Positions 17,937-29,388 are shown, numbered from the stretch's first letter. The stretch: DNA of 64,000 nucleotides from Rhodospirillaceae bacterium MC! (GCA_002632265.1 NQOV01000012.1:1-64000); one strand, 5' to 3'. A program made the numbers and translations. Notes: a model not told the origin generated them from the sequence alone.

Positions 17937-18713
17937 ATGAGTCCGCATGCTATTAATTTTCAAGATCTATTATCTTTGAATATATTTCATTTTTTATTGG
18001 TTTTTATTCGTCTAACATCATCTTTTTTGATCTTGCCATTTTTTAGCACTCAACAAATTCCCATGAAAGTAAAAGTATTATTTTCCTTTTTTGTCTGTTT
18101 AATTGTAACCCCTGCGGTATCCGAATATTTACCAAAAGAACCCTCTGGTGTGCCTGTATTGGTTGTTCTTATTTTACGAGAATTTCTCATAGGCTTATTT
18201 TTTGGTACTATCACATTAGTAATGACAAGTATTGCCGATACTACAGGGCAGTTTATTTCACGTAACATCCAATTGGCGAACTCAATGGTGCAAGATTCCA
18301 TTAGTATGCAACAATCATCGATTGTATCAACCATGCTTAATCAGTTGATCTATTTGATTTTTATTGTATCAGGATTGTTCGAAGTCTTCATAAAAGTAAT
18401 GATTGAAAGTTATACAATTTTCCGTATAAACGATGTCCTATTAGTGGGAGATATGGCAAACTATTTAGTGAAAGAAGTGAATATGACATTTATTCTAGGT
18501 GCACAATATTCCATGCCATTTATTATTCTTAGTTTGATAATTCAGATAATATCTGGTATAATAGCGAAATTAACTCCGCCATTACAAATGTTTTTCGTAA
18601 CAATGCCTTTAAATATTGGGATAGGGATATTGTTACTTTACACAACTCTTCCAGTAATGGTCCAGCAAATATTAACGAAATTATCCGAAATGTTTATGGA
18701 GTTTTTACCATAA
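17937..18713 (+). CDS. fliR: Flagellar export protein FliR
   Basis: FIRLTSSFLILPFF, LILREFLIGLFFGTI, FISRNIQLANSMVQD. Confidence 0.9.
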   Translation: MSPHAINFQDLLSLNIFHFLLVFIRLTSSFLILPFFSTQQIPMKVKVLFSFFVCLIVTPAVSEYLPKEPSGVPVLVVLILREFLIGLFFGTITLVMTSIADTTGQFISRNIQLANSMVQDSISMQQSSIVSTMLNQLIYLIFIVSGLFEVFIKVMIESYTIFRINDVLLVGDMANYLVKEVNMTFILGAQYSMPFIILSLIIQIISGIIAKLTPPLQMFFVTMPLNIGIGILLLYTTLPVMVQQILTKLSEMFMEFLP

Positions 18714-18779
18714 ACATCATACATAATACATAAAGATATACAAGTATATACGAGCATAAATAACTAAGGAACATATTTC

Positions 18780-19865
18780 ATGGCAGATCCAGAAGACGAG
18801 GGTAAAACCGAAGAACCCACCGATAAAAGATTACAAAAATTAAAAGAAGAAGGCAACACCATACAATCTCAAGAGTTCGGCAGTCTTGGGGGGATGTTAG
18901 CTACATATATAATATTTACCTTTCTAATTCCCTTTTATGTAACAAATATAGGAGAAAAGTTAAAGGGCCTAGCCTTAACATTTAACACCTTTGGGAATAT
19001 CACAACCGAAAGCCTAGTAATGTTATTCCGTATAGTTTTCTTAAATATTTTATCGTGGGTTTTTTTAGTAGGGCTAGTGCCTGTTATATTTAAATTTGCA
19101 ACAGAAATAATTATGCACGGTTGGGTATGGAATCCCAAAAAAGCATGGGATCCCAAATTATCCAACTTAAGTCCGTTAAACGGAGCTAAAAAGCTCAACG
19201 CATTTTCTCCGCCAAACTTGGTAAAAAATGGCATGAGTTTCGTGAAGTTAATAGTACTAAGTCTTGTGCTAGGTTGGTATATATACACAGAAATCCCAAA
19301 GTTCAGTGATGTAATAACCAACGGAATCATTGACTCATTATTATATTTAAACCATTTAGTAAAAGTATCTCTAGTAATTATTTTACTATTTATGCTTATT
19401 CTAGGAGTGAGCGATTGGCGTTATCGTGTTATGAAATACATGAACGATAACAAAATGAGCAAGCACGAAGTAAAAGATGAACACAAAAACACCGAAGGCG
19501 ACCCCCTAGTAAAACGTAAAATCAGATCGATTCGTATGCAACGCCACCAAGAAAGATTAGTCCAATTCTCATCACGTGCCGACGTTCTAATAACCAACCC
19601 CACCCATTTCGCCGTTGGTCTCGAATACAAACCCGATACCATGAACGCCCCCGTTGTTGTTGCCCTAGGTCAAGATCTAGTAGCCCTACGTTTAAAAACT
19701 CTAGCTAAAGAAAATGACATCCTAATAGTAGAAAATCCCCCCCTAGCACGTGCCTTATTTGCCAGCTGTGAACTAGACCAAGAAATCCCCGCCGAACACT
19801 ACCACGCCGTAGCCGAAGTGATTGGATATATTATGAAGATGAAAGGCGTCATCATCGAAAACTAA
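18780..19865 (+). CDS. flhB: Flagellar export protein FlhB
   Basis: EGKTEEPTDKRLQKLKEEGN; autocleavage NPTH in VLITNPTHFAVGLEY. Confidence 0.97.
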   Translation: MADPEDEGKTEEPTDKRLQKLKEEGNTIQSQEFGSLGGMLATYIIFTFLIPFYVTNIGEKLKGLALTFNTFGNITTESLVMLFRIVFLNILSWVFLVGLVPVIFKFATEIIMHGWVWNPKKAWDPKLSNLSPLNGAKKLNAFSPPNLVKNGMSFVKLIVLSLVLGWYIYTEIPKFSDVITNGIIDSLLYLNHLVKVSLVIILLFMLILGVSDWRYRVMKYMNDNKMSKHEVKDEHKNTEGDPLVKRKIRSIRMQRHQERLVQFSSRADVLITNPTHFAVGLEYKPDTMNAPVVVALGQDLVALRLKTLAKENDILIVENPPLARALFASCELDQEIPAEHYHAVAEVIGYIMKMKGVIIEN

Positions 19866-19983: not shown

Positions 19984-20847
19984 TTATTTCATATATATAA
20001 ATCGTTCGCCAGGTACGAAGACGTGATTTTTTTTGTGGGAATAGTTTTGAGATAGGTAATCTAAGTAATAGATTATGTTATCCGAATTGTTGGAGAACAT
20101 ATCGAAATGGCAAGGGATAATTAAATCGCCGTTTACATCGTTAAAGAAATCACAAGCTTCTCTAAAGTTCATATTTGGAGCTATGTCCCTATTAGCTCTA
20201 TAATAATCGCCACCATTAATGGCTAACATCATGATATCAGGCGATAATTTTTTGACTTCTGCTATTAATTCTTTAGTTAAGGATGTATCGCCACTATGAT
20301 ATATTTTGATATCATCGCATGATATAAAATAGCCCACATAACGATCATTTCCTTGTTCATCCTTATCATAATCTGCGTTTTCATGAGCTGACGCTATGGG
20401 CAGGATCTCAAAATTACCTATTTTAATGGTTTTACCTGTTAAAGTAGCATTAACTTGCCCTTTAAGATCAGGATAATCTTCTTTTAAGCTGTTATGATCT
20501 GGAGTAGGGATATAGTAGGGGATTTTATTGTTAACTTTTGTTAATTCTGTTAGTGTTCCAACATCCATATGATCATCATGAAAATGTGTAACAAATACGC
20601 CGTTAATATTTGCCAACTGTTGCGGATCTAAGACAGGGGGATATTCACGCTTGAATTCTGTGGTAGGGTCATTTTTTTCTATGTTATAACTAAGATACGG
20701 ATCAACCGCTATCATATCCCCATAAGCATTTTTAAATATAAAGCCTGTTTGTCCCAAACTCCATATTGCCATAGATCCCTTAGGTACATCCGTATGATTT
20801 AGTTCATTTTCCATTTCTTTTTTATTGCGTAATTCTTTATATAACAT
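19984..20847 (-). CDS. MBL-fold metallohydrolase (UlaG-like)
   Basis: THFHDDHMDVGTLTEL, IYHSGDTSLTKE, LIIPCHFDMF; ATG at 20847 preferred. Confidence 0.87.
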   Translation of the reverse strand: MLYKELRNKKEMENELNHTDVPKGSMAIWSLGQTGFIFKNAYGDMIAVDPYLSYNIEKNDPTTEFKREYPPVLDPQQLANINGVFVTHFHDDHMDVGTLTELTKVNNKIPYYIPTPDHNSLKEDYPDLKGQVNATLTGKTIKIGNFEILPIASAHENADYDKDEQGNDRYVGYFISCDDIKIYHSGDTSLTKELIAEVKKLSPDIMMLAINGGDYYRANRDIAPNMNFREACDFFNDVNGDLIIPCHFDMFSNNSDNIIYYLDYLSQNYSHKKNHVFVPGERFIYMK

Positions 20848-20986
20848 AATACTTTCTTTCCTATTTTTTATCATAATTAATCGATGAGAATATTTTAATC
20901 CTATGGAAATATTCTCACATTTTTAATTATAACAAATTTTATCACACGAGTCTATAATTATATTTATTATATCGTCTCATATTATT

Positions 20987-23900
20987 TTATTTCTTAAATA
21001 TTATCTGATCGGATGTGAATGGTTGGGCGGGATTAGTGGTGTTTAGGCTGTGGACTATGGCTGTTTTAAGATTGGTGGATATAGAGGTGGTTAAGGGCGT
21101 GTTATCGAAGAGTTTGCAGGATAGTTGGTGGGTTAGATGTGCTAATACTTTAGTGGTATCGTTATCATAGATGCCAAGAGCCTCTTGATAGGTGGGGATT
21201 ATGCTTAACAGATTGTTAAGTTGGCTGTGTTCTTTTTCGCTGATATTGTTGATATCTTTTATCTTGCTAATGATTGCAACCATTTGTTCTTTTATGGGAT
21301 TGTTAAAGGGATCTGACAGGTGGCTAGGCTGATACTTATAGGGTTGATCCTTAAGATTGGTTTTGTGGATTTTACATAAGATTGGTTCTGCCCAACCGTT
21401 TTGGAAGATCATGGCAATACCTTGTTTTAAGGTTGCCAACTGTCCTAACTGTTGTTCTTTTGCTCCTGCGGAAAGGCCGGCGATTTTGCAATCTTCATTA
21501 TCTGGCAGGCGATGAATGATTTTTGTGTTAGTGTTTTTAATGGCAGAACTATCAACTTTTTCAGGCGATTGATCAACAATAATAAAGGCCTCGCCATAGG
21601 TTCGCATTTCGGCGATAGCGTCCGATATTACTTCGATTGATTTATTGGATGTATTCCCCTGTGGACGTTGATGAGTGTTGATGTTTGGTAGCAGATTATG
21701 AGCCTCTTCTAGAACGGTAATATGCTTGAGTTTTGAATTGGATTGTATGATGTCATTTTCCCATTGTTCCATGCGATATTCTTGAAGTTTAATGAATAAA
21801 AATCCTGTAATTAAAGATTTTGTTTTCAAATTACCAACGCTAGATAAATCAATGATACATTTACTATCAAATAAGATATCTTCTGTGATTTCATCTTTTA
21901 CGAAGATATCCTTATGGAATCTTTTTGTTAATTCTTTTACGTTTTCCACAAGAGATCCCCTATAGTTTTCCTTTACTTCATCGCTAAAGCTTGAATTTTT
22001 GATGATCAGATGTAGGCTATTGATGAGATCGTTAAAATCAGGATATTCTTTATCTTCATATATATATTGCGAGCGAGAAATTATCCAGCCTTTACTTTCG
22101 TAGGCATGTTCTAAGGCTGATCTTAATATGGTTGGCATGGTTTTATACATTGCCCAAGCGGAATTAAAGATCTCCACGAGCTTATCCATATGTTCGGTTA
22201 GAGTTATACTTTCAGGAAAGGAAAAGGGATTAATTCTTAAGAGATCTGTTTTTTTATGGTTTGTCCCAAATACATGCACATCCGAACCACCGCCTAAGAT
22301 GTTTTTATATTCGCCCTTTGTTGGTTCGATGATCAAATAAGGGATCGATGAACAGTTATTAAGTATGGTGTTTATGGTGTTAGATTTACCTGATCCTGTT
22401 GATCCTGTAACAAAAACATGGGATGTAAAGAGATTTTTATCTAGTGCTACGGTGTTTTTAAGATCCTTATCCATATGGTGGATTGTGCCAATTTCTACTC
22501 TATTATCTTTGTCTGGCACATTAGGGGGATTGACGCCAAAGGATTCCAAATGAAGTACGGTTAGATTATCGAAAGATTTCTCTGGAAAAGGCAAGCCGTA
22601 AGCAAGTTCATTGCTTGTTATGGGAAGACCGAATTCCATACCGTTGTTGCTTTTGAGATTGTTTAAGGATAACACTGACTTTTTAGCATATTTTAGATTC
22701 TCTTTGGATTTTTCTTGGTCTATACTAAAGCTATAGGGCGGTATATTCTCCATTTCTTCGCCTAAGAGAATCCCTTGAGTGATATCTGTACATAATTTGG
22801 CGTCTTCAATGTTTTCTGTGAAGAAATACGAGGCATATTGCCACATCCCTTTACTTAAACCTTGGTTAAGGCGGTTTATTTCTCTGTCTATGAGTTGTAA
22901 TTCGTTGGTTATGGCTTTGTTTTCTTGGGTGTAGTTTATGGTTTGTCCTTTTGTTAGATTGTTGGATAATGTTTCGGCTATACTGTTGGATACTCCTACC
23001 GTGCTACTTTCTCCGATGATTGATGTTGTTTTCTTAGCGTTTTTCTTATCGCCACTCACTAGAGATCCGAGAGTTGCTCCCAAGCTTGTACCTACAACTC
23101 CGCCCAATGCCAAACCCACAGGCCCAGCAAAACCGCCAGCCATTTCGCCCAATGTTGCCCCTACTGTTGGTAATAATGTTTGAAAGAGTGCTTTAGTTCC
23201 TGCTTGTGCTTGTTTGATTTCGTCATCTTCGCCTTTGGTTTTTTCATTGCTTGTGCTATCGGTACTTGTGTTGCTGTTGGTATCTGTGGTTGTTTTTTCG
23301 TCGCCTGTGCTTGATGATTGGTTAAGCGAACCGCTGATATTTGCTAGGCTACTACGTTCGGTATATGCTTGTTCAAAAAAGGATTTACTTTCTGCTAATC
23401 TGTTTTTATTTATGGGTTCAGCTAGTAAAAGCATGGTGAAATTATCTAGATTAATTGAATGGGCGATTTTTTCCAAGCCTTGTATGTAATTCTTTTGCTT
23501 ATTTTTTGCAGAAGGTAAAAGCTGTAATCCCGAAAATGCTTGAAAATCCTGTTCTATTTCAACCATTAATCCCGTTTTTTGCGAAGATTCGTTGCCGTTT
23601 TTAAGCCTTGTGGTTTCAATTCCGCAGAAGATCCCCCCAAGTAAGCCCTCCACGAGCTTTTCCGCTTTGGCTGAATGTTCGGAATTGTTCTTTTTTACCA
23701 ATAAATAGAAATTGGTTTTGCCGTTCGTACGCTTTAACATGATAGCAGTTGTTAAATCGTATTGATAGAATGATGTATACATCATTTTGAGCTTTTCTTG
23801 AGTATCTTCGGATTTATCATATACGAGCTTGGTTATATTAAACATTTCTATGTTGTTAGTAACGATGTTTTCAAGACTTTTTTCATCATAGGGCATGACG

Positions 23901-24046
23901 TTTAATTCTAAGTCTTCATATGCTAAAGATTTATTAAATAAGTTATTTTCAAATACTTCTTTGAGTTGTGATTCTTCTAATTCCTTTAACTTAGTTAGTG
24001 TTTGAGAATTGATGTGCTGTAGTTCTTGATGTTCGTTTTTAGTCAT
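20987..24046 (-). CDS. HerA/DUF87-type ATPase with glycine-zipper hydrophobic segment
   Basis: Walker A VFVTGSTGSGKSNTINTIL, Walker B ITVLEEAHNLLPN; GATLGEMAGGFAGPVGLALGGVVGTSLGATLGSL in the middle of the chain. Confidence 0.85.
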   Translation of the reverse strand: MTKNEHQELQHINSQTLTKLKELEESQLKEVFENNLFNKSLAYEDLELNVMPYDEKSLENIVTNNIEMFNITKLVYDKSEDTQEKLKMMYTSFYQYDLTTAIMLKRTNGKTNFYLLVKKNNSEHSAKAEKLVEGLLGGIFCGIETTRLKNGNESSQKTGLMVEIEQDFQAFSGLQLLPSAKNKQKNYIQGLEKIAHSINLDNFTMLLLAEPINKNRLAESKSFFEQAYTERSSLANISGSLNQSSSTGDEKTTTDTNSNTSTDSTSNEKTKGEDDEIKQAQAGTKALFQTLLPTVGATLGEMAGGFAGPVGLALGGVVGTSLGATLGSLVSGDKKNAKKTTSIIGESSTVGVSNSIAETLSNNLTKGQTINYTQENKAITNELQLIDREINRLNQGLSKGMWQYASYFFTENIEDAKLCTDITQGILLGEEMENIPPYSFSIDQEKSKENLKYAKKSVLSLNNLKSNNGMEFGLPITSNELAYGLPFPEKSFDNLTVLHLESFGVNPPNVPDKDNRVEIGTIHHMDKDLKNTVALDKNLFTSHVFVTGSTGSGKSNTINTILNNCSSIPYLIIEPTKGEYKNILGGGSDVHVFGTNHKKTDLLRINPFSFPESITLTEHMDKLVEIFNSAWAMYKTMPTILRSALEHAYESKGWIISRSQYIYEDKEYPDFNDLINSLHLIIKNSSFSDEVKENYRGSLVENVKELTKRFHKDIFVKDEITEDILFDSKCIIDLSSVGNLKTKSLITGFLFIKLQEYRMEQWENDIIQSNSKLKHITVLEEAHNLLPNINTHQRPQGNTSNKSIEVISDAIAEMRTYGEAFIIVDQSPEKVDSSAIKNTNTKIIHRLPDNEDCKIAGLSAGAKEQQLGQLATLKQGIAMIFQNGWAEPILCKIHKTNLKDQPYKYQPSHLSDPFNNPIKEQMVAIISKIKDINNISEKEHSQLNNLLSIIPTYQEALGIYDNDTTKVLAHLTHQLSCKLFDNTPLTTSISTNLKTAIVHSLNTTNPAQPFTSDQIIFKK

Positions 24047-24072
24047 GATTTTGATCCTGTAAATAGAGTTGG

Positions 24073-24501
24073 TTAATCTTGTGATTTTTCTTGAGTTTGT
24101 GTTGTTTTTCCTGTTGTGCCACTATCTGATAAGCTTAAGTAAATGACGCTAATAAAGACAATAAGAATTATCAAACCTGCAATAGCCATATATTTTTTTG
24201 AGAGTTTTTTCTTGGGGATTGCATTGGCGGCCACTTGAGTATCAGGCAGAAGAGCCAACAATTGGTTAATCTTTTTTTGGGAAAAATTCACTTTAATACT
24301 AGCAAAGAGATCTTTTTTATTGTTGCTGATTGTTAAGCCGTCATCCACATCAAAGAAATTATTGCCGAATGTGTTCAAACATTTACGCAAATTTTTATTA
24401 AATTCTGCTTTAGTACTTATTTCTTGCCTGATACTTGCAATAATAATACTTCGGCAATTGTTAATGTTTTTATTATTAAGTGCATTTTTAAGCTGATCCA
24501 T
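24073..24501 (-). CDS. Small protein with one C-terminal TM helix, unknown function
   Basis: 142 aa; KKYMAIAGLIILIVFISVIYLSLSD near the C-terminus; packed between the GTPase and ATPase genes. Confidence 0.75.
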   Translation of the reverse strand: MDQLKNALNNKNINNCRSIIIASIRQEISTKAEFNKNLRKCLNTFGNNFFDVDDGLTISNNKKDLFASIKVNFSQKKINQLLALLPDTQVAANAIPKKKLSKKYMAIAGLIILIVFISVIYLSLSDSGTTGKTTQTQEKSQD

Positions 24502-24516
24502 TTGTGCTATTTCCTT

Positions 24517-26937
24517 TTATGATTTTTCGTTATCGTCTAAATCTTTATCGATAAAAATATAATCTAGGGCTTGCTTGAAGGTATCTAGTTTGTCTTTATG
24601 TTTGATAAGTTCTTGATCTTTTTTTGAGATATTGATGTAATCGCTAATTTTATCGATAATATCATCAATGCTTTTATTTAGATTTTGCTTAAAGTCTTTG
24701 AAATTCTCTTCGGCTATTATCTGAATATTCTTTGCATATTGATCGCATTCACTTTCAAGATTAATAAGGATATTTTGTATTTCTTGTTCGATGTCAGTTT
24801 TCTCATAATATTCGGGCTTTTTCGGACTCCATAAGAACGCAGGCATATATTTATTCCAAACAAAATCTCGACATTCGTACCATATGTTAGATTTTGTTTT
24901 AAGTTCCACATTACGAACCTGAATAGCCTCTTTATTTACTGCGACATTGGAGAAATCGTTGGATATCTTTAAGCTTTCCTTAATTCCATATTCTTGCAAT
25001 TCTTCATCGCTAAAAAGACCAATGATAACATTTTCCGATTTTTTAATGAGATCTTCCCTTAATTCGATGTTTTTCTCTTCCACATCGGCTTCAAAGGCAC
25101 TTGTTACATTCGGAATATGATTGATGAATTTTTGTATTTCCTCTTGGATTTTCTGATTAAATGGTTCAAAATCCGCAGGCTTGATCGAGCTTTTTAAGTG
25201 AGAGAAATCTTCATTTATCAATTTTGTGAATTTATCTAACTCTTCATTTAAGTTGGCAGATATATTATTAAAGATCGGATTGATTTCTTCATTGAAATTA
25301 AGACTGTTAGATTTTCTCTTAACATCTTCAATTACTATGGAATTTTGGAGTTTTTCTAGTAATCTTTGAGTTTTAGCTTTAAATTCGGCGTATTTGTTTT
25401 CATCAAGTTCATTATCGCTATTTAGTAGGGATTCGACGTTTTTTGCTTTGGTAAAGGCGAAATCTAACTTGTGAGAAATTTCCGACAATATGGCGTTTAA
25501 TTTAATGGGTAGGGTATATTTAGAAACGTAGTTTTTAATATAATATTCCACCGCTGGCACGCCTGAATAGTATTCCACTTGTTCGGTTAGGCTTTTGCCT
25601 TGGAATTGGTTTTTGAGTTCCTTTTTATCGTGATTGCTTAAGGTAGAAAGATTTGAAAGGTTAAATAATTCATTATCGGTAATATAGCTTTTTAGTTTAT
25701 CTAAGGTATCTTTGGATTTTCTTCCCAGTTCGGATTCTCGGTTGGCAAGTAATGAATGCTCGGCACTAATGGGGAATATTTTCGGATTTCTGATATCGTA
25801 AGAATGTTCCGAAAGCTTGTTTGACCATTTTTTGATGTGATCTTCTAAAGCCTCTTGGATCTCATCAAGATTTTTATCTTCTAGGGTTTCGGCGTCGGCT
25901 TTATTTAGGATGAAAATAAATCTATCGGAAATGGTGGAATTCTTGGCATTATTTAGAACTTTACTCACTTCTTTTAGAATGATCTCGGCGTCTTCTGTAA
26001 CATCGCCATTGGTAATGTTGGCGATGAATAAAACTATAGGCTTTGTCTTTAATTTTGAATTTTGACTATTGCCATGGATATAATCAAAGGTTATTTTGCA
26101 ATGTTCTTTGTTGCTTGCGTTATTCGTGCCTGGAGTATCAATGAAAACAAAACTATTATTATGTTCATTATCATCAACCAACTTGGAAAGTTTGTGCTTA
26201 ATTGTGATTTGTTGAAGTGGCTGATTGCTTTCATTTGTCTTTTCGTTATTTTCGTTATTGTCGTTATTTTCGGAGCTTTTCTCGAAGAATTCCGCTTGAA
26301 TGTTGCCTTTATGGAGATTTTTGATGTCTTTATAGTTGAATTTATTCCATGTTTGTTGATCATCAATGGAATATTCCGTCTCGTCGATATCCGCATGGAC
26401 GATTTTTGTAATGATAGACGTACAAGCCTCATTGCCTGACGCAAGAATCTCACTGCCGATCATACTATTTATAAGCGTAGATTTGCCCGCACTCATGGGA
26501 GCAGTAACGATAATTTCTGTCGGTTCGTTGATATAATCTTGAACAGCGTTCATCTGCAGATCAAAGTTATCTTTTAAGTAAGAGGCGTTAATACTATTTA
26601 GTAAGTTTTCTATTTTGCTTTTTATGGTGTGCAATTCTAGCCCCTGATCGATCTCATATTTAGGTTGATTGGTGGTATCTTTAAATTTATTGTGATGATC
26701 TTTTATATATTGTTGGAAAATATCGCAATCTTCTTGCCTAGCCTTTAGGGTAAATGTGATTTTATCCACATTAATTTCCTGTATGATATCGGCTAATTTC
26801 GGCAACCATTCCCAAATAAAATTCGCATTGTTTTCTATTTTTGTAATAGTTAAGGTTTTATTTAAGCTTGGTGGCAATATAAACTCTGTTTTTTTTAGAT
26901 ATGTATTGTGTTTTATGACAATTTCCATTTTATACAA
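24517..26937 (-). CDS. Dynamin-like GTPase
   Basis: G1 APMSAGKSTLINSMIGSEIL, conserved T in ACTSIITKI, G3 FIDTPGTN, G4 LNKADA, long helical C-terminus. Confidence 0.87.
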   Translation of the reverse strand: MYKMEIVIKHNTYLKKTEFILPPSLNKTLTITKIENNANFIWEWLPKLADIIQEINVDKITFTLKARQEDCDIFQQYIKDHHNKFKDTTNQPKYEIDQGLELHTIKSKIENLLNSINASYLKDNFDLQMNAVQDYINEPTEIIVTAPMSAGKSTLINSMIGSEILASGNEACTSIITKIVHADIDETEYSIDDQQTWNKFNYKDIKNLHKGNIQAEFFEKSSENNDNNENNEKTNESNQPLQQITIKHKLSKLVDDNEHNNSFVFIDTPGTNNASNKEHCKITFDYIHGNSQNSKLKTKPIVLFIANITNGDVTEDAEIILKEVSKVLNNAKNSTISDRFIFILNKADAETLEDKNLDEIQEALEDHIKKWSNKLSEHSYDIRNPKIFPISAEHSLLANRESELGRKSKDTLDKLKSYITDNELFNLSNLSTLSNHDKKELKNQFQGKSLTEQVEYYSGVPAVEYYIKNYVSKYTLPIKLNAILSEISHKLDFAFTKAKNVESLLNSDNELDENKYAEFKAKTQRLLEKLQNSIVIEDVKRKSNSLNFNEEINPIFNNISANLNEELDKFTKLINEDFSHLKSSIKPADFEPFNQKIQEEIQKFINHIPNVTSAFEADVEEKNIELREDLIKKSENVIIGLFSDEELQEYGIKESLKISNDFSNVAVNKEAIQVRNVELKTKSNIWYECRDFVWNKYMPAFLWSPKKPEYYEKTDIEQEIQNILINLESECDQYAKNIQIIAEENFKDFKQNLNKSIDDIIDKISDYINISKKDQELIKHKDKLDTFKQALDYIFIDKDLDDNEKS

Positions 26938-27210: not shown

Positions 27211-29388
27211 ATGCACATGAAAAAAACATTATTATATTCTCTAGTTGGATTGTCATTGTCTTCTACATCCTTTATTGCTCAAGCATATGGGGCTTGTTCA
27301 TACACAGCTAAAGGAGCGGATATTATAACAAAAGGTACATCAGCATGTATTGACGCAGGAACATTAGGGCAAGATATCACTATCGATACACCTATCACAA
27401 CCATTACTTTAAATGATAAAAATAACGTGCTAAGATTACATAATGACTTCTCGGCAGATATTGACGGTAAAAAGGGTAGTGATGAAATTGTCTTACAAGA
27501 ACTTCATAGCCCTTTACCGTCTGATCCATGGTTGGGAGCAATCACAACCGAAACAATAAGCGGAACACATAAAATCACAGGTGCAATCAAAGGTATCGAA
27601 AGTATAGAAACCATAGACGGTACATGGGAATTTACTAAAGAAGTTCATTTAGGAGCGGATGTGCCATCAATTACAGAACTGGCCGCAAGTAATGGAAGTC
27701 AAACACCGAATTTAGAATCTGTAAAACCAGCTACCGCAAGCTATTTCCCTACACTTGCCCAATTATCGAGTGCCACATTGATTTTCGATAAAAAGTTATA
27801 TTTAGGCTTGACCCTACAATCGCCAAAACCGACGGACGCCACTCAAAACCAACCGATAAATGCTCATATTACCGCTGGTCATGTGCAACTTAAAGGCGGT
27901 TTTCAACTTGAGATATTCCAAGGTTTACAAGCCTTACCGAAAAAAAATTATTCCACCACTTTAATCGATAGTGCCGATATTACCGACGGTAACGGCAGTA
28001 AGGATATTACAGACACCGCAGGGAACAAATTAACCCCAGGTACGCCAAATGTTTGGGATGATGGTAACTGGCACATTCAAGAAACCCTTGATGATAAAGG
28101 TTTACACATTAAAGTAGCCGCTGGTAATAATCCCAATTTCTCTGCCATTCCTGACGCCACATCTACCACCACAGCCACAGCCACAGGTACAGGTACAGAC
28201 GCAGGCTCAACCACAACAGACGGCGATTCAAGTGGCGGTGGTGATGCTACCTTAAACTATAATCCGAAAGAATTAAAGTATAATGATGATATAACCTTTG
28301 CCATAAGTAACCAAGCGTCCAAATATCGTACAGATACCATAGTGGCTCACGATTCTAAATTCATTGATTTCTCCGTAGCAAGGGATTCCGCAGGGACTTA
28401 CCAGAATTTATCTTTAATTGAAGCTCATTTAAATATCTCAAGTGCTTTCACCCAAGACGCTCCAGTCTTACACAATACCGATGAACGTAATATGATTAAC
28501 TTACAAGTGGGTTATTATCATGGTTCTGGTCAAACAGGAAAAGAGGGAGCTGATAGTCAATCATATATGGGATCAGATACAGAATCCGACATGGAATCAG
28601 ATATGGAATCCGATACAGACTCAAACTCAACCGCAGATTTTAAAAGATTTGTCAACGCCTATTCCATAGGTAGTGCCGTTAAATTCTACAATCCTTTTAA
28701 ACGCAAAAATGCAGGATTCCTAAGAGATTTATGGTTCAGTACAGGCTTTGATTTGGGCTTTGCTCAACAATATGACATCTCAAGAATGAATGTCGATTGG
28801 GACCAAACAACTCTAGAGGGTAAAGAAAACGATTTCTTCTTAACCAACACATCATTAATAGGGATAGATTTATACGGTCATTTCAAATACAAAAACGGTG
28901 TCAAGCTAGTAGTTAGCCCATATGTGGGACTAGGGTTAAACGCCTATAGATTCGGAATGTATACAGAAGTCGCTCGTAATCCATTAATTATCGATTCCAC
29001 ATATCGCTTTAATGCTTACGGCATTTTTGGCGTTCATGCAAAAACCATATACAGATTTAAGAATAATCAAGTGGTAGGCATAGGAGCTACAATTGAAACA
29101 AACTATCGCTTTAGAAATACCGCTAGCACAGATAACACAGACATAACCGAAAAAACCGTCAGCACCGATAAAGACGGAAAAACTAGCACTTTCACTCGTA
29201 GATTCTCCTACAAACATTGGAAATCTTCCGACATAATAGATAATGTATACAAAAAGTATCCCATAACTTTCGGAATTGACGCAACCTACCAACCAATCCC
29301 AAACCTTGCCTTATTCACCAAAGCCAACTACTCAACCGCCGAACTATATAACTATAATGTAGAAATTGGAGCAAAATTCAACTTCTAA
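27211..29388 (+). CDS. Autotransporter-like outer membrane protein
   Basis: N-terminal signal peptide, Thr/Ser-rich passenger-like region, C-terminal beta-barrel-like strands ending NYNVEIGAKFNF. Confidence 0.75.
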   Translation: MHMKKTLLYSLVGLSLSSTSFIAQAYGACSYTAKGADIITKGTSACIDAGTLGQDITIDTPITTITLNDKNNVLRLHNDFSADIDGKKGSDEIVLQELHSPLPSDPWLGAITTETISGTHKITGAIKGIESIETIDGTWEFTKEVHLGADVPSITELAASNGSQTPNLESVKPATASYFPTLAQLSSATLIFDKKLYLGLTLQSPKPTDATQNQPINAHITAGHVQLKGGFQLEIFQGLQALPKKNYSTTLIDSADITDGNGSKDITDTAGNKLTPGTPNVWDDGNWHIQETLDDKGLHIKVAAGNNPNFSAIPDATSTTTATATGTGTDAGSTTTDGDSSGGGDATLNYNPKELKYNDDITFAISNQASKYRTDTIVAHDSKFIDFSVARDSAGTYQNLSLIEAHLNISSAFTQDAPVLHNTDERNMINLQVGYYHGSGQTGKEGADSQSYMGSDTESDMESDMESDTDSNSTADFKRFVNAYSIGSAVKFYNPFKRKNAGFLRDLWFSTGFDLGFAQQYDISRMNVDWDQTTLEGKENDFFLTNTSLIGIDLYGHFKYKNGVKLVVSPYVGLGLNAYRFGMYTEVARNPLIIDSTYRFNAYGIFGVHAKTIYRFKNNQVVGIGATIETNYRFRNTASTDNTDITEKTVSTDKDGKTSTFTRRFSYKHWKSSDIIDNVYKKYPITFGIDATYQPIPNLALFTKANYSTAELYNYNVEIGAKFNF

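Follow-up and report, generated by a model that had tools for sequence, protein, structure and literature searches.

The subject of this study is a group of three adjacent minus-strand genes in a 64,000-nucleotide stretch of DNA from Rhodospirillaceae bacterium MC! (GCA_002632265.1, NQOV01000012.1:1-64000), the whole of which is called the window. The genes encode a dynamin-like GTPase, a tail-anchored protein of 142 aa and a HerA/DUF87 ATPase of 1019 aa, and very probably belong to a horizontally spread family of dynamin-HerA cassettes. The order of the cassette is (WYL regulator) - dynA - dynB - tail-anchored protein - HerA - polymorphic toxin - immunity protein. Elsewhere, swappable toxin and immunity genes almost always follow HerA, and the cassette therefore probably serves to handle or deliver antibacterial toxins. 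It is apparently widespread and undescribed and is classed with the polymorphic toxin systems. The host assembly (2.05 Mb in 19 contigs, 95.5% complete) gives an alpha_tmRNA match of 195.5 bits, as expected for an alphaproteobacterium.

A tblastn search of plasmids found the same gene order on Lactococcus cremoris pB26B, E. coli pTW10590_133 and Treponema saccharophilum pTS2. All three have a second dynamin gene upstream, and downstream an HNH-type nuclease gene and a small gene, which is SMI1/KNR4 in the E. coli and Treponema plasmids. A query of genome contigs with a single protein returned nothing, and one made from an alignment of six HerA proteins gave at least 567 relatives. The best 80 of these, with flanks of up to 10 kb, were combined with five close plasmid loci to give a set of 85. 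The loci were picked on HerA alone, blind to their neighbours, and since the best 80 are those closest to the window HerA, the neighbourhood counts describe only that part of the family.

The 85 loci cover seven phyla (Bacillota, Pseudomonadota, Bacteroidota, Fusobacteriota, Spirochaetota, Verrucomicrobiota and Synergistota), and seven relatives were found on viral contigs. The cassette was present in 1 of 385 genomes of the window's class, namely the window genome itself, and in 1 of 5426 E. coli genomes, too few copies there for a comparison of the same machine with different toxins. The HerA proteins of Veillonella caviae (L054) and [Clostridium] aminophilum (L062) are near-identical, on branches of 0.003 and 0.0008, a sign of recent transfer. 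Three loci on Acinetobacter, Photobacterium and Rhodococcus plasmids (L038, L039 and L040) carry a distant sister HerA of similar length with no dynamins, followed by Gly-rich small or large Pro-rich proteins; these are possibly a related group with other cargo.

Dynamin open reading frames (ORFs) lay upstream of HerA on the same strand in 81 of the 85 loci, and 63 loci had two of them. The four loci lacking an upstream dynamin include two at contig ends (L085, L097) and one, L074, with its dynamins downstream. A small protein whose last 60 residues include a transmembrane (TM) segment was encoded in 67/85, and a WYL regulator was found near 33/85. HerA was directly followed by a gene, termed X, in 81/85, with an overlap of exactly 4 bp in 29 of these 81, and a second gene, Y, came next in 74/85. 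Because these neighbours recur in loci chosen on HerA alone, they provide an independent test and the trio is not a chance arrangement. The window shares the core of the cassette, with dynB, the small protein with a C-terminal TM segment and HerA adjacent in that order. The initial annotation had proposed the trio as a membrane-acting module, to be abandoned if the genes failed to co-occur elsewhere or showed clear homology to a secretion or conjugation apparatus. Co-occurrence was found, and the membrane-associated parts were also borne out. Among the 25 commonest families in the nearest flanking genes there were no ESX, mating-pair or other secretion or conjugation components.

Family models applied to 80 X proteins assigned 41 to WHH, 9 to LHH, 9 to Endonuclea_NS_2, 2 to a glutamine-amidase papain-fold toxin and 1 to Ntox15. 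Of 72 Y proteins, 29 matched SMI1_KNR4/SUKH, 16 DUF6985, 1 Tdi1_C and 1 a YezG-like family. By these assignments, X and Y in most loci are predicted polymorphic toxins and their immunity proteins. The toxins are about 150-380 aa long, with a conserved N-terminal part of ∼40-70 residues and swapped C-terminal domains. A motif at the toxin N-terminus was seen in 29/81 sequences against 5.8 in shuffles, a statistic which is partly circular, since these very sequences supplied the motif. Reliance was therefore placed on a pairwise comparison of L077, L113 and L119, in which the HerA proteins are 71-75% identical and the toxin N-termini 49-71% identical (E<=1e-15), while the C-terminal domains give no alignment. 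Two tandem toxins in L042 have similar N-termini and different C-termini, and second cargo genes differing from the first also occur in L101, L102 and L105. Thus the relatives combine a constant N-terminus, a swapped C-terminal toxin and a cognate immunity gene. No Sec-type N-terminus was evident on the X toxins (0/81 with an h-region-like and 1/81 with a TM-like segment), so that some other route would be needed if they leave the cell.

The three ORFs of the window are intact over 5.9 kb. Their features, and the gene found in the cargo position, are as follows.

20987..24046, minus strand: HerA/DUF87 ATPase, 1019 aa, with a predicted ferredoxin-like N-terminal domain, a Ser/Gly-rich hydrophobic linker and the HerA core
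23327..23908, minus strand: HerA N-terminal domain, residues 47-240, conserved in the family (71-sequence alignment and AlphaFold2)
23042..23209, minus strand: HerA Gly/Ala-rich hydrophobic segment, about residues 280-335 (hydropathy)
22382..22405, minus strand: HerA Walker A GSTGSGKS, residues 548-555 (invariant alignment columns)
24073..24501, minus strand: tail-anchored protein, 142 aa, with a helical domain (residues 2-84) bearing the NF[S] motif, then a TM helix
24112..24207, minus strand: TM segment of the 142-aa protein, residues 99-130 (hydropathy)
24517..26928 (ATG start, 803 aa) or to 26937 (TTG start, 806 aa), minus strand: dynamin-like GTPase, dynB type
26476..26502, minus strand: dynamin G1 APMSAGKST, residues 146-154
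26128..26139, minus strand: dynamin G3 DTPG, residues 267-270
25894..25905, minus strand: dynamin G4 NKAD, residues 345-348
19984..20874, minus strand: UlaG-like hydrolase of metallo-beta-lactamase (MBL) fold in the cargo position, judged to lie outside the module (112-bp gap, 50% identity to MBL hydrolases)

The dynamin gene comes first, then that for the 142-aa protein and then HerA. The gaps of under 30 bp read in the initial annotation measure 26 bp (HerA to the 142-aa gene) and 15 bp (the 142-aa gene to dynamin). The sequence GGAG at 26943-26940 lies 2 bases from the TTG at 26937 and 11 from the ATG at 26928. Given this spacing, and homologues starting at the same place, the ATG is more likely to be the true dynamin start. 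A promoter and terminator scan gave a signal no better than chance.

The annotated identities of the three proteins were likewise upheld. Dynamin_N matched the GTPase at 58.7 bits (Pfam cut-off 27) and all three G motifs are intact, placing it in the dynamin superfamily. With regard to a membrane-binding paddle and stalk oligomerisation, what was seen is an aromatic WYKPWTW-like stretch in many dynB relatives and a looser version of it in the window dynamin. DUF87 matched HerA at 49.7 bits (cut-off 23.2), and the intact Walker A is joined by a Walker B, LEEAH, at residues 779-783. The 142-aa protein has one strong hydrophobic segment at residues 99-130 (Kyte-Doolittle (KD) 2.83) followed by ∼12 hydrophilic residues, consistent with the single C-terminal TM helix proposed. 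Its version of the NF[S] motif common to the small-protein family is VNFSQKK. Structure prediction gave a helical domain, a linker and a TM helix (mean predicted local distance difference test (pLDDT) score 81), for which a search of PDB structures found no match (best E 1.4). AlphaFold2 predicted an alpha/beta ferredoxin-like fold for HerA residues 1-245 (mean pLDDT 75). Matches of this domain to VirB4/TrwK and ESX-5 parts are non-significant (E about 0.06-0.1) and serve as a lead only. The glycine-zipper segment noted earlier in HerA is real as a Gly/Ala-rich hydrophobic stretch, but it is weakly hydrophobic (KD19 maximum 1.59); a hydrophobic stretch is found at this linker position in 59/86 family members and is thus common, not essential.

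The following scheme would account for the constant association of these genes. The tail-anchored protein and the hydrophobic linker of HerA would keep HerA, as a hexamer, on the cytoplasmic membrane, and the constant toxin N-terminus may be a tag recognised by the machine. With ATP as its fuel, HerA would then bring toxin carrying the tag to the membrane or across it; the dynamins would shape or open the membrane for release of the toxin, and the immunity protein would shield the producer and its kin. We put the chances of this mechanism as a whole, a membrane-anchored HerA motor with dynamins moving N-tagged toxins, at about even, and in it we infer the delivery step. That dynamins, tail-anchored adaptor and HerA motor form a new delivery machine of both Gram types, exporting short N-tagged antibacterial toxins, is a more tentative proposal.

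Several observations weigh against a toxin-delivery role. The cassette has no outer-membrane or cell-wall component, though Gram-positive and Gram-negative bacteria alike carry it. Roughly 15 loci have no dynA, and 27/86 members lack the HerA hydrophobic stretch. In L036 (6971-8947) and L037 (7243-8874) dynB has lost its GTPase domain and kept its N-terminus, with HerA retained. Judging from these two sequences, GTPase activity may be dispensable in some cassettes and dynB may act beyond GTP hydrolysis. The window itself has no toxin and immunity pair, the MBL hydrolase sitting there instead, so that a toxin role for this copy follows from its family only. The failure to find WHH genes in the window genome is also weak evidence, because the WHH search matched no control genome.

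Constant neighbours that are toxin and immunity genes indicate either conflict with other cells or a toxin switch within the cell. In the second case the toxin and immunity protein would function as a toxin-antitoxin effector does, with HerA and the dynamins detecting phage or membrane damage and releasing the toxin inside the cell that made it, as a suicide or phage-defence response, and the lack of an envelope-spanning part and of an export signal on the X toxins leaves room for this. HerA ATPases and bacterial dynamins are known in phage defence (PMC8844932 for DynA), PADLOC lists a WYL class with CRISPR loci, which bears on the WYL regulators found here, and Abi, McrC or Csm6 genes lie near some plasmid loci. 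However, the SUKH, Tdi1_C and YezG immunity families are known mainly from delivered toxins (PMC3482391, PMC7033585), a constant tag with a swapped toxin and tandem cargo pairs are not what such a switch suggests, and few defence genes occur in the flanks, in a scan made without a control set. The phage-defence lead of the initial annotation thus gained no specific support, the antiphage-HerA, MADS and Leo models also matching weakly. Delivery is the better fit to the immunity families and the tandem cargo, and we regard the intracellular switch as somewhat unlikely.

A delivery role for the family leaves the state of the window copy to be considered. Its HerA retains 118 of 148 near-invariant family positions, the lowest of 86 members, and has a basal place in the tree next to two Bacteroidota sequences, its branch being long and its position unsure. 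It also lacks dynA, though dynB alone occurs in other loci, and L044 and L081 similarly have no adjacent X despite kilobases of available sequence. No WHH, LHH, NS_2 or SUKH gene was found in the window genome, subject to the weakness of the WHH search noted above, and hidden cargo of these four families elsewhere in the genome was provisionally rejected. The MBL-fold gene was rejected as a replacement effector, being an ordinary UlaG-like hydrolase 50% identical to Klebsiella and E. coli plasmid MBLs. Two Bacteroidota cassettes, L064 (12886-13875) and L106 (4325-4825), are possibly nearest to the window; they carry a helical X of 166-174 aa and no nuclease toxin, followed in L064 by an HNH-like small gene with no Pfam match.

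Having neither a second dynamin gene nor genes for a toxin and an immunity protein, the window copy is a machine without cargo, most likely a divergent minimal cassette either in early decay or serving an unrecognised cargo. That it is already a functionless, decaying remnant would fit the long branch, the low HerA retention, the missing genes and its sole occurrence in the class. We consider this unlikely, given that all three ORFs remain open with catalytic motifs intact, that dynB retains 21 of 25 near-invariant positions including the GTPase motif residues, and that the operon spacing is tight. A role of the trio in membrane repair or DNA transfer, with the toxin pair as a plasmid-stabilising passenger, is more improbable still, since some copies being plasmid-borne, the likeness of the HerA core to VirB4 and CedD and the weak VirB4/TrwK-like match of its N-terminal domain are set against the absence of conjugation genes, the coupling of HerA to toxins with a cassette-specific N-terminus and the many copies on long chromosomal contigs.

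The cassette was compared with known systems. With the polymorphic toxin systems (contact-dependent inhibition (CDI), Rhs and LXG/type VII secretion system (T7SS); Zhang et al. 2012, PMC3482391) it shares a constant N-terminus and swappable C-terminal toxin, an immunity gene directly downstream, tandem cargo and the WHH, LHH, NS_2 and SUKH families. It differs in its dynamin, tail-anchored and HerA partners and in the shortness of its toxins and their N-termini, and the window copy differs further in having no cargo. The portion of the text of review PMC3482391 that was available makes no mention of dynamin. As in the type VII (ESX) and type IV systems (EccC/YueA, VirB4), an FtsK/HerA-superfamily ATPase stands beside nuclease toxins, but neither the cassette nor the scanned flanks showed any ESX or mating-pair membrane component.

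The HerA defence systems (antiphage HerA, MADS) share the DUF87 ATPase core, but the window trio has no SIR2, DUF4297 or MADS partner. The window HerA scored 43.6 bits against a HerA_antiphage cut-off of 800 and 41.5 against 850, with the partner gene absent, and its match to MADS (81.7 bits to mad8) is confined to the ATPase core. Eleos/LeoABC and other paired bacterial dynamins (e.g. PMC6104087) also have operon-paired dynamin-like GTPases, to which the cassette adds HerA, toxin and immunity genes. The window dynamin matched LeoBC at E = 0.042, and relatives matched LeoA/LeoBC at 24-34 bits. The PADLOC models carry no cut-offs, and matches to them are weak or confined to the ATPase core; no NCBIfam model reaches its cut-off on the cassette proteins. 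No description of a dynamin-HerA toxin cassette was found in the open-access literature, a scope which leaves out subscription papers and preprints.

The cassette bears on how short polymorphic toxins with no known secretion domain leave the cell, and on what most paired bacterial dynamins do. Here dynamins, short toxins and a motor ATPase are tied together in one compact mobile unit spread over seven phyla and carried, among others, by an E. coli plasmid and one from a dairy Lactococcus. Toxin delivery, if true, would be a new secretion principle, and the cassette would be categorically new if export were shown; action inside the cell would make it a new toxin-based defence. Either way, many proteins annotated merely as 'ATP-binding protein' or 'dynamin family protein' are given a functional context.

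Other genes of the window were also noted. The UlaG-like hydrolase resembles Klebsiella and E. coli plasmid genes yet lies in an alphaproteobacterium, and at 45715-47916 there is a phosphotransferase system (PTS) gene with IIC, IIB, IIA and HPr domains; together these suggest a possible acquired sugar pathway. A FlgE-like flagellar hook protein (4404-7367, minus strand), unusually long at 987 aa, adjoins fliF (2486-4150), with genes resembling flhB and fliR at 17937-19865. The gene at 27211-29388 (plus strand), which runs divergently from that of the dynamin, encodes a 725-aa protein with a signal-like N-terminus, no Pfam match and a C-terminal end resembling an autotransporter-like outer-membrane barrel. 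Further on, 31522-32631 (plus strand) encodes a Ser/Asp/Gln-rich protein of 369 aa, also with no Pfam match, in which a 'TQSQ(K/E)DL'-like motif is repeated near the N-terminus.

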